The position numbers and the translations under genes were made by a program. DNA of 48,939 nucleotides from an uncultured bacterium. Lineage in GTDB: Bacteria; Desulfobacterota; Desulfobaccia; Desulfobaccales; 0-14-0-80-60-11. Position 1 is the first letter of the stretch; each line of letters starts with the position of its first letter. The notes under the pieces were generated by a model. That model was given only the letters and a program-made list of their open reading frames with translations, did no database searches and was not told the origin of the DNA. The DNA is taken from the NCBI GenBank assembly GCA_937943575.1, contig CALEAV010000022.1:1-48939 (forward strand), read 5' to 3'. Below are positions 9,982 to 15,089 of the stretch, piece by piece.

Positions 9982-11148
9982 TTACTGGGCCTTTTTATAC
10001 AGGGGCGACATCTCCCGCAGTGTCTGGACGATGGGGGGCATGACCTCCAGGACCCGGTCGATCTCCGCCTCGGTGGTGTCCCGGCCGAGGCTGAAGAGGA
10101 GGGTGCCCTGAGCGGTGGCGAAATCCATCCCGGTGGCGATGAGGACGTGGGAGGCCCGCAGCGACCCGGAGGCGCAGGCGCTGCGGGTGGCCACCTCGAT
10201 GCCCTCCTCGTCCAGCATGAGCATGAGACTTTCGCCCTCGATGTATTTGATGGACACGCTCAGCAGGTGGGGCAGGCACTGAGTGGGGTGGCCGTTGATG
10301 ATGATCTCGGGGATGCGGGCCACCAGGCCGTCCCGCAGTCTGTCCCGCAGGCGCCGGATGCGGGGCAGGCGCTGGGGGATCTCTTCTTTGGCCACCTCCG
10401 CCGCCACCCCCAGGCCCACGATGCCGTAGAGGTTTTCGGTGCCGGCCCGGCGTTTGTTTTCCTGGGCGCCGCCGTCCAGGAGCGGCCACACCGGGGTGCC
10501 CTTCTTGATATACAGGGCCCCGACCCCGGGAGGGCCATAGAACTGGTTGGCGGCCAGGGAGAGCAAATCCACCCCCAGCTCCTTCACGTCCACCGGGATG
10601 ACCCCCACCGCGTCCACCGCGTCCGTATGGAAGAGCACCTTGTGCTTCTTGCAGATTGTGGCGATGTCGGCGATGGGCTCGATGGTGCCGATCTCGTTGT
10701 TGGCCAGCATGATGCTCACCAGGATGGTGTCCGGGGTGATGGCCTTCTCCACCTGGGCCGGGTCCACAAGCCCGGAGGCGTCCACATCCAGGGAGGTGAC
10801 CTGGTAGTCCAGGAGCCTTAAGGTGCGCAGGGAATTGAGGACGGATTTGTGCTCGATGTTGGAGGTGATGATGCGGCGGCCTTTTTCCCGGAGCCCCAAA
10901 GCCACCCCCTTGATGGCGTGGTTGACGGATTCGGTGCCGCAGGATTCAAAGACGATCTCCCCGGGGTCGGCATTGATGAGGGCGGCCACCTGTTCCCGGG
11001 CCCGCTCCAGCAGGGCGGCGGCCCGCTGCCCCACCTGGTGGTCGCTCACCGGGTTGCCGAAGACATTCTGGATGCAGTGGATCATGGCCTCCTTCACCCG
11101 GGGGTGCAAAGGGGTGCCGGAGAGGTGGTCCAGATAGATGAGTGCCAT
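9982..11148 (-). CDS. NifS/IscS-family cysteine desulfurase homologue lacking the PLP lysine
   Basis: 388 aa, class V aminotransferase fold of the NifS/IscS type. Conserved landmarks include GTES (71-74), His100 of NIEH, NNEIGTIEPI (150-159), HTDAV (174-178), the GTEN turn (236-239) and the mobile-loop Cys325 in RSACASGS. The PLP pocket is altered: the SxHK motif reads LAANQFYGPPG, so the Schiff-base Lys is Gln202 and the preceding His is Asn201, while the usual Gln of DAVQ is Asp179. It therefore should not perform normal cysteine desulfuration. Archaeoglobus fulgidus IscS also lacks this lysine and has been described as supplying its Cys as a cluster ligand to IscU. Here it lies 26 bases after iscU in the same operon. 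Confidence 0.85.
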   Translation of the reverse strand: MALIYLDHLSGTPLHPRVKEAMIHCIQNVFGNPVSDHQVGQRAAALLERAREQVAALINADPGEIVFESCGTESVNHAIKGVALGLREKGRRIITSNIEHKSVLNSLRTLRLLDYQVTSLDVDASGLVDPAQVEKAITPDTILVSIMLANNEIGTIEPIADIATICKKHKVLFHTDAVDAVGVIPVDVKELGVDLLSLAANQFYGPPGVGALYIKKGTPVWPLLDGGAQENKRRAGTENLYGIVGLGVAAEVAKEEIPQRLPRIRRLRDRLRDGLVARIPEIIINGHPTQCLPHLLSVSIKYIEGESLMLMLDEEGIEVATRSACASGSLRASHVLIATGMDFATAQGTLLFSLGRDTTEAEIDRVLEVMPPIVQTLREMSPLYKKAQ

Positions 11149-11174: not shown

Positions 11175-11699
11175 TCAGTGGTCGTGCTCGTGGGGGATTT
11201 CAGCGCCACAAAAGAGGCAGAAAGGAGCCTCCTCCAGGGTCTCTTTGTGGCAGTAGGGGCAATAGCAGCCTCCCTCCCCCGCCCCTTTGATGTGCTCCTC
11301 CCGGTCTTTGGCCAGGTCCGGGATCTTGCCGGCCTTCCGGTCCAGGTAGTTTTTGATGGCGGCATGCAGGGCGTCGGCCCCCAGGTTGGAGCAGTGCAGT
11401 TTGTTTTTCGGCAGGCCGCCCAGGGCCTCGGCCACGTCCCTGTTGGTGATCTTCATGGCCTCTTCCAGGGTCTTGCCCTTGGCCAGGGTGGTGATCATGC
11501 TGGAGACCGCAATGGCGGCGCCGCAGCCGAAGGTCTTGAATTTCACGTCTTCAATGACGTTGTCTTTCACCTTGATGTAGACATTCATCATGTCCCCGCA
11601 GACGGGATTGCCCACTTCGCCGATGCCGTCGGCGTCCGGGATTTCCCCCACGTTGCGGGGATTCTTGAAATGGTCCATGACGATTTCGGAATAGGCCAT
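11175..11699 (-). CDS. iscU: IscU/NifU-type Fe-S scaffold with C-terminal zinc-ribbon extension
   Basis: 174 aa. Residues 1-125 are an IscU domain with all cluster ligands: Cys34 and Asp36 (NPVCGDMMN), Cys59 (FGCGAAIA) and His102-Cys103 (LHCSNLG). The scaffold assembles [2Fe-2S]/[4Fe-4S] clusters before transfer to apoproteins. Residues 143-174 form an extra Cys-rich tail (C145, C147, C150, C161, C164 in GCYCPYC and FCLFCGAEI) ending in a His-rich HEHDH, most likely zinc-binding. It is the first gene of a two-gene operon with the lysine-less nifS homologue and is driven by a strong promoter about 30 bases upstream. No regulator (IscR), hscA/B or ferredoxin gene is nearby. Confidence 0.92.
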   Translation of the reverse strand: MAYSEIVMDHFKNPRNVGEIPDADGIGEVGNPVCGDMMNVYIKVKDNVIEDVKFKTFGCGAAIAVSSMITTLAKGKTLEEAMKITNRDVAEALGGLPKNKLHCSNLGADALHAAIKNYLDRKAGKIPDLAKDREEHIKGAGEGGCYCPYCHKETLEEAPFCLFCGAEIPHEHDH

Positions 11700-11731: not shown

Positions 11732-11760
11732 ATTATAATAGCGTCATACTCGGAAATCAA
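11732..11760 (-). promoter_or_regulatory. Strong sigma-70-type promoter for iscU-nifS
   Basis: On the minus strand: TTGATT (11755-11760), 17-base spacer, TATAAT (11732-11737, six of six). The start of transcription would be near 11725, giving a leader of about 25 bases that carries an AAGGA ribosome site before the iscU ATG. No IscR-like operator is recognised. Confidence 0.78.
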
Positions 11761-13937: not shown

Positions 13938-15089
13938 ATGCGGCTGAAGCGGATCTGGGTGGAGGAGGCGGCTCTGCCCTATGAAACCACCCGGCGGGTG
14001 CTGGCCCGGCTCCAGGGGGTGCAGGTGCGCGTCATTCCGCATCGGGAGGCGCTGCGGCCCCGGGGCGGGCTCGGCGCGGATTGGCCGCCCAGGGCCAAGG
14101 AAACCCTGCTGCTGGCGGTGCAGCGGGGGCCGTTCTGTCGTCCCTGCCCCGGCACCCCGGGGTATGTCTGCTGCGGCTACCAGGTGGTGCAGTGGGGGCT
14201 GAACTGCCCCTTCGACTGCCGCTACTGCATCCTCCAGGGGTATCTCAATCTGCCGGCCCTCACCGTGTTTGTCAATCAGGAGGATCTCCTCAAGGAGCTG
14301 GAGGAGCGGTTGCCGGCGGGCGAAATCTGGCGTCTGGGCACCGGCGAATTTGGGGACAGTCTGGCCCTGGATGAGCTCACCGCCCTGCATGCGCGGCTCA
14401 TCCCCCTCTTTGCCCGCCAGGGGGAGGCGGTCCTGGAGATCAAAAGCAAGGGGGCGGCCCTCGACCATCTCCTGCCACTGGGACCCAATCCCCGGGTGAT
14501 CTTTGCCTGGTCCCTCAATCCGCCTGCAATGATCCGGGAGCTGGAGCCGGGCACCGCGCCTCTGGAGTCCCGGTTGCAGGCGGCGGCCCGGGCGGCGGCG
14601 GGCTTCCGGCTGGCCTTTCACTTTGACCCCCTCATCTGGGGTGAGGGCTGGGAGGCGGCTTATGAGGAGACCGTGGCGCGGCTGGCCCACGCGGTGCCGG
14701 CCGGGTCGGTGGTCTGGGTCAGCCTGGGGGCCCTGCGCTTTCCCCCGCCCCTGAGGCGCCGGATTTTGGAGCGCTTTCCCCTGAGCCGCTTTGCCGCCGA
14801 GGAGATGGTCCTGGCCCCGGACGGCAAGCTCCGTTATTTCCATACCCGGCGGGTGGAGATGTATAGCCGCCTGCGGGAGTGGCTCACCGCCGCCTTTCCG
14901 GCCGCCACCCTGTATCTGTGCATGGAAAGCCCCAGGGTGTGGCGGCAGGTCTTCGGGGAGGCGCCGGACCCGGAGGGCCTGGCGCACCGCCTGGACGCCG
15001 CCGCCCGGAAAGCCTCCGGGGCGGCGGTAAGACAGGCCCGGGATGGGGGTGTGTCTGAGGCGGCCGGCAGAGCCCCAAGGCCAGGGTGA
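13938..15089 (+). CDS. Spore photoproduct lyase-like radical SAM protein
   Basis: 383 aa. The radical SAM cluster motif CxxxCxxC is at C90, C94, C97 (LNCPFDCRYC), preceded by PCPGTPGYVCCGYQVV, as in spore photoproduct lyases (SplB). Later blocks EIKSKGA, VIFAWSLNPP, FHFDPLIWGEGW and RYFHTRRVEMYSRL also follow the SPL family. In Firmicutes SPL repairs UV-induced thymine dimers in spore DNA using a radical generated from S-adenosylmethionine. This organism need not form spores, so the homologue's role (other DNA photoproducts or another substrate) is open. No photolyase-type chromophore domain. The last 40 residues are low-complexity and probably unstructured. Confidence 0.85.
   Translation: MRLKRIWVEEAALPYETTRRVLARLQGVQVRVIPHREALRPRGGLGADWPPRAKETLLLAVQRGPFCRPCPGTPGYVCCGYQVVQWGLNCPFDCRYCILQGYLNLPALTVFVNQEDLLKELEERLPAGEIWRLGTGEFGDSLALDELTALHARLIPLFARQGEAVLEIKSKGAALDHLLPLGPNPRVIFAWSLNPPAMIRELEPGTAPLESRLQAAARAAAGFRLAFHFDPLIWGEGWEAAYEETVARLAHAVPAGSVVWVSLGALRFPPPLRRRILERFPLSRFAAEEMVLAPDGKLRYFHTRRVEMYSRLREWLTAAFPAATLYLCMESPRVWRQVFGEAPDPEGLAHRLDAAARKASGAAVRQARDGGVSEAAGRAPRPG

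Follow-up and report, generated by a model that had tools for sequence, protein, structure and literature searches.

The iscU-iscS operon and its altered active site

The window, by which we mean the whole stretch of 48,939 nucleotides that was analysed, comes from an uncultured bacterium of the Desulfobaccales and carries an operon composed of iscU and a gene for an IscS/NifS homologue (Table 1). The iscS gene starts 26 bp downstream of the iscU stop and has a ribosome site resembling GGAAGGAG. The equivalents of the IscU residues Cys37, Asp39, Cys63, His105 and Cys106 are intact in the window IscU. Two promoter-like matches were found in the region, against 0.2 expected.

Table 1. Features of the iscU-iscS region in the window; residue names in brackets follow E. 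coli IscS numbering.
Feature	Position	Strand	Details and basis
Lys-less IscS/NifS homologue, type A	9982-11148	-	388 aa, ATG start; ORF, family match and AlphaFold2 model
Leu351, replacing active-site Arg354	10096-10098	-	Arg in 120/120 Lys-type sequences, never in Lys-less rows
Cys325 (C328), mobile-loop Cys in TRSACAS	10174-10176	-	kept in 102/103 Lys-less rows
Asn201-Gln202, replacing His205-Lys206	10543-10548	-	sequence
DAVD, residues 176-179: Asp176 (D180) kept, Asp179 replacing Gln183	10612-10623	-	sequence and alignment
His100 (H104)	10849-10851	-	kept in 103/103 Lys-less rows
iscU/NifU_N scaffold, 174 aa, same operon	11175-11699	-	TIGR03419, 202.7 bits, over cut-off; PF01592
C-terminal zinc ribbon of IscU (CPYC...CLFC)	11196-11267	-	PF13240, 25.3 bits
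Sigma-70-like promoter upstream of iscU, TTGATT-17-TATAAT	11732-11760	-	consensus match only

The IscS homologue matched Aminotran_5 (PF00266) over its full length (E 5e-71, 240 bits) and scored 484 bits against the NifS model TIGR03402, which is under the equivalog cut-off of 531. Its AlphaFold2 model (pLDDT 93.2) had NFS1 and IscS structures as best PDB matches (Foldseek TM 0.95-0.97), with values of 0.97 to NFS1 and 0.95 to the IscS of Archaeoglobus fulgidus (4eb5). The window protein belongs by descent to the NifS/IscS family of class V aminotransferases. Among the residues expected of a cysteine desulfurase, the mobile-loop Cys is present as Cys325; the Schiff-base Lys is replaced by Gln202, and Gln183 and Arg354 (E. 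coli IscS numbering, inferred via Pantoea IscS in the alignment) are replaced by Asp179 and Leu351. The region of the SxHK motif reads SLAANQFYGP, with Asn201 encoded by AAC (10548-10546) and Gln202 by CAG (10545-10543); the ANNEIGT block is intact, and Gly11 sits at the site of Thr12. An earlier, sequence-only reading of this DNA had reported LAANQF, DAVD, His100, NNEIGT and Cys325, all of which were borne out, and had missed the losses of Thr12 and Arg354, which are added here. Judged by its defining residues, the window protein is an IscS homologue that would not qualify as a cysteine desulfurase.

The Asn-Gln pair was also found in two genomes of the same genus (94% identity), and every member of the same family that was read (76-94% identity) has Asn together with Gln or Ile at the motif; the family includes MAGs labelled Desulfobacca acetoxidans. 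The dN/dS of the window iscS against four family members was 0.09-0.19, and the Lys-less form occurs in 28 families of the phylum. A degenerate or mis-sequenced desulfurase that has no function would account for the missing catalytic residues, but the identical losses are kept across 28 families, the dN/dS is low and the operon is retained, so that sequencing error and pseudogene were ruled out and this explanation is refuted for practical purposes. The sequence-only reading would have fallen had the substitution proved to be a sequencing error in close relatives; this did not arise, as the relatives keep the substitutions.

A clade of IscS homologues without the Schiff-base Lys

We searched 297 genomes of the phylum, together with relatives and collection matches; the sequences were sampled by their similarity to the window protein, and the counts are therefore not unbiased frequencies. 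The 193 distinct IscS/NifS sequences comprise 92 with the Lys and 101 without it, and the residue at the Lys site in the latter is mostly Gln, followed by Pro, Ala, Thr, Ser, Ile and Val. The Lys-less rows formed one clade in a FastTree tree of 126 rows, and under an IQ-TREE mixture model (49 rows, from which the DAVQ and SxHK columns had been taken out) a single change was recovered with support of 100/100. As read from these phylogenies, the clade-wide Lys loss is of one origin, and we infer that the variation at the Lys site fits relaxed constraint after that single loss.

The Lys-type sequences have Gln183 in 120/121, His205 and Lys206 in 121/121 each, and Thr12 and Arg354 in 120/120 each. 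The His-Lys pair, found in 121/121 Lys-type sequences, is found in 0/103 Lys-less rows; in these rows His205, Lys206 and Arg354 never occur, and Thr12 and Gln183 are not among the residues listed. The same 103 rows all keep His104 and Asp180, and Thr243 is present in 94 and Thr76 in 80 of them. No new near-invariant Lys near the active site, as would be expected of a relocated Lys, was detected in the clade alignment.

Given that His104 and Asp180 are invariant, non-covalent binding of PLP like that in the A. fulgidus structure cannot be excluded, and it is conceivable that these proteins are PLP enzymes that work without the Lys, holding the cofactor through Asp180, His104, Thr76 and Thr243 and catalysing slow cysteine desulfuration or some other reaction. 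The retention of these four residues fits such an enzyme, as do the PLP held in the A. fulgidus IscS structure (PMC9769115), the title of PDB entry 4hvk, which calls that protein 'an unusual L-cysteine desulfurase', and the observation that E. coli IscS K206A still binds some PLP (PMC9978102). However, the single mutants K206A and Q183E of E. coli IscS showed no desulfurase activity (PMC9978102). In the same work H104Q was inactive too, and the conservative mutant R354K was active. In the clade, Thr12, Gln183, His205 and Arg354 are gone in addition to the Lys, for which no substitute near the site was detected, and A. fulgidus IscS was reported to be without desulfurase activity (PMC7585200). 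We consider a Lys-free PLP enzyme improbable.

The mobile-loop Cys (Cys328) is present in 102/103 Lys-less rows, and residues flanking it have changed in the clade (Gly325 to Arg, Ser323 to Ala or Asn). The one exception, L161, lacks the entire loop. The in-frame deletion at this locus (L161:1999-3120), by which the complete loop including the Cys is missing, is either a real variant or an assembly artefact. A Lys-less subclade (L164, L194 and L205) has an altered loop, AGASACMSITA, and no adjoining iscU, and possibly has another function.

Partner genes, host genomes and the association with dsrA

A copy of iscU lies at most 1.2 kb away and on the same strand for 92/101 Lys-less genes, and it is the only neighbour consistently shared across some 28 families. 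The survey of relatives and that for a second NifS, both proposed in the first reading, gave what it predicted or more. The IscU ligands Cys37, Asp39, Cys63, His105 and Cys106 are intact among the partners of the clade. A C-terminal CxxC...CxxC zinc ribbon was found in 68/92 IscU partners of Lys-less IscS, spanning 22 families, vs 0/34 partners of Lys-type IscS. We regard the ribbon as an added, lineage-specific IscU module; a role in interaction or in metal buffering is a guess.

The near-universal linkage to iscU, the strong purifying selection and the conserved fold would also suit a purely structural partner whose task is to stabilise or regulate the folding of IscU and the release of the cluster, with the loop Cys kept for that contact surface or for redox sensing. 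Yet the Cys is invariant while its flanks have changed, which suggests that the thiol acts chemically, and we find a purely structural partner very improbable.

The host genome (2.58 Mb, 95.8% complete) bears dsrA, and it contains a second Lys-less pair in L001, where IscS (1489-2679, with SGPALGGP at the motif), Rrf2 and IscU are found. The sequence-only reading had proposed that a second, canonical NifS be sought in the same genome; a second NifS-like protein is indeed present, but it is also Lys-less and not canonical. PF00266 and protein searches of this 95.8% complete assembly detected no Lys-type NifS, IscS or SufS. Sister genomes have a Lys-containing IscS that does not adjoin iscU (type C), the locus of which is missing from the host assembly, and most family members also carry this separate Lys-type IscS. 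An assembly gap cannot be distinguished from true loss, and the absence of a canonical desulfurase from the host remains unproven. An SMS-like SufC-SufB pair is present in the host genome (L222:302-2262), its SufC ending with a CxxC motif (EECIRCRR).

Two further observations concern other genes. The stand-alone Lys-type IscS of L095-L113, which has a GAACH loop, is located in relatives near acyltransferase, SppA and FlgM genes and never beside iscU, and is missing from the host assembly. Positions 13938-15089 (+) of the window match the spore photoproduct lyase family (PF20903); the host is probably a non-spore-former.

At the same cut-off, dsrA was detected in 56/68 genomes with the Lys-less form vs 0/27 genomes that have only a Lys-type, and, counted by family, in 25/28 vs 0/16. 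As there was a single loss of the Lys, the association amounts in essence to one evolutionary contrast, and the Fisher values obtained for it do not speak for independent events. The gene order iscU-iscS(Lys-less)-dsrA on one strand was found in three genomes (G194, G185 and G146; loci L147, L124 and L126), with the dsrA of all three loci over the TIGR02064 cut-off. The presence of dsrA does not imply a Lys-less IscS: among 31 genomes sampled outside the first match list, 27 that bear dsrA had a match, and 26 of these show only Lys-type proteins, either NIF-type or stand-alone. One complete genome of the same order, G024, gave no Lys-less match, though it bears dsrA.

Lys-less loci of type B in the family (L077, L083, L087, L089 and L090) are located near HcyBio (PF01837), NIL-ferredoxin, Rrf2 and Hdr/Fer4-CCG genes. 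According to published work, the HcyBio and NIL-ferredoxin families make homocysteine from sulfide. A TusA-family gene (PF01206, 56.6 bits) is present in the type-B operons, and a DsrE-family gene (PF13686) in several other Lys-less branches. These carriers favour the main rival explanation, a persulfide relay, in which Cys325 takes sulfane sulfur from type-C IscS, from a TusA/DsrE-like carrier or from DsrC-linked sulfur and passes it to IscU. The retention of the loop Cys, which a single Lys-less row lacks, the Lys-type IscS elsewhere in most relatives and the binding of TusA by E. coli IscS (PDB 3lvj) are in agreement with a relay. However, the type-A operon of the window has no sulfurtransferase neighbour, a canonical desulfurase was not found in the host assembly, and the A. 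fulgidus precedent is one of cluster ligation, not of sulfur relay. A relay is unlikely on this evidence, although it has to be kept in mind.

Proposed role and comparison with known systems

Cysteine is regarded as the compound from which bacterial ISC systems obtain their sulfur. For the window pair, we think it reasonably probable that a desulfurase-dead IscS, with IscU as its dedicated partner, serves as a ligand donor in sulfide-fed Fe-S assembly; the lack of activity, the sulfur source and the ligand role are all inferred. A. fulgidus IscS is reported to contribute a Cys as ligand to the cluster on IscU (PMC7585200, PMC5176006), and a cluster-release step via IscU Asp35 has been proposed (PMC7585200, PMC5176006, PMC9769115). 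In E. coli lacking IscS, H2S feeds Fe-S synthesis through IscU under anaerobic conditions (PMC13015791). On the A. fulgidus precedent taken with the H2S-fed IscU of E. coli, the window pair is best explained by cluster assembly that draws on sulfide and in which IscS donates a ligand. According to this model, the window IscS would be unable to take sulfur from L-cysteine. A dimer of it would bind IscU, and Cys325 of the mobile loop would complete the site of the nascent [2Fe-2S] cluster by serving temporarily as its fourth ligand, for which the crystal structure of A. fulgidus IscS-IscU is the model. Asp39 of IscU would then displace Cys325, and the holo-scaffold would be released. The sulfur would be free sulfide, which should be abundant in a dsrA-bearing anaerobe.

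The sequence-only reading had arrived at a ligand donor or scaffold working with environmental sulfide, and this remains the best inference, although not a proven one, on the basis of the lost residues, the A. fulgidus precedent, the host dsrA and the sulfide feeding of E. coli. Against it, there is no biochemistry on any bacterial member, the type-C Lys-type IscS of most relatives could supply persulfide, and some PLP role may persist, given the invariant PLP-contacting His104 and Asp180.

Lys-less IscS is already known in A. fulgidus and was noted in IscS1 of Methanosarcina acetivorans. In the open-access literature (subscription journals were not covered) we found no report of a bacterial Lys-less IscS clade or of its single origin, and none that describes the Arg354 and Thr12 losses, the zinc-ribbon IscU or the dsrA operon. 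A broader proposal, which we put forward only tentatively and which may well prove wrong, is that a desulfurase-free ISC system is widespread in bacteria: one ancestral loss of five catalytic residues would have given rise to a Cys-ligand IscS for a sulfide-fed, often zinc-ribbon, IscU, with a link to dissimilatory sulfite reduction (some genomes having dsrA in the same operon), and in hosts like that of the window all Fe-S assembly would bypass cysteine. The bacterial clade, most of whose hosts make sulfide, keeps the IscS-IscU pair without the defining chemistry of IscS. What was an archaeal oddity thereby becomes a natural experiment, open to testing, on the roles of IscS for IscU beyond sulfur donation. 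The clade also bears on whether anaerobes build clusters directly from sulfide, and also on annotation, as many of these proteins are currently named 'cysteine desulfurase'.

The A. fulgidus IscS-IscU pair (4eb5/4eb7/4hvk/4r5f), which provides the only solved Lys-less IscS structure, resembles the window pair in that the Lys and His of SxHK and Gln183 are replaced, the loop Cys is kept and IscU is the partner; its host, like that of the window, is a sulfidogenic anaerobe. The parallel that the first reading drew with this protein held up, as the A. fulgidus fragment reads DATA and SSND and is thus changed at the same three sites; the comparison covers residues 168-253 only, and the archaeal protein was not in the tree. 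A. fulgidus IscS differs in having Asp at the Lys site, where the clade has Gln, Pro or Ala, and in being archaeal and about 44% identical. M. acetivorans IscS1 (MA0808) is likewise Lys-less and encoded beside iscU, and the IscU1 that goes with it is enlarged too (24.2 kDa) (PMC7585200); this IscS1 is insoluble when expressed alone, and it is unstudied.

E. coli IscS, NifS and NFS1 share with the clade the fold, the loop Cys, His104, Asp180 and the IscU partner, but they have Lys206, His205, Gln183, Thr12 and Arg354, whereas the clade lacks all five and no desulfurase chemistry is expected of it. The minimal system MIS is similar to the window operon in consisting of two genes, for a scaffold and an IscS-like unit, and in having no HscAB, Fdx or carriers in the operon. 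MIS was described with a cysteine desulfurase (PMC12192291); the window pair meets the scaffold criterion and fails in the desulfurase residues. An SMS-type system was shown elsewhere to use sulfide (PMC12192291), and SmsB-SmsC is like the window pair in having sulfide as the proposed source and no desulfurase, but it is built on an unrelated scaffold, an ABC ATPase with a SufB-like protein.
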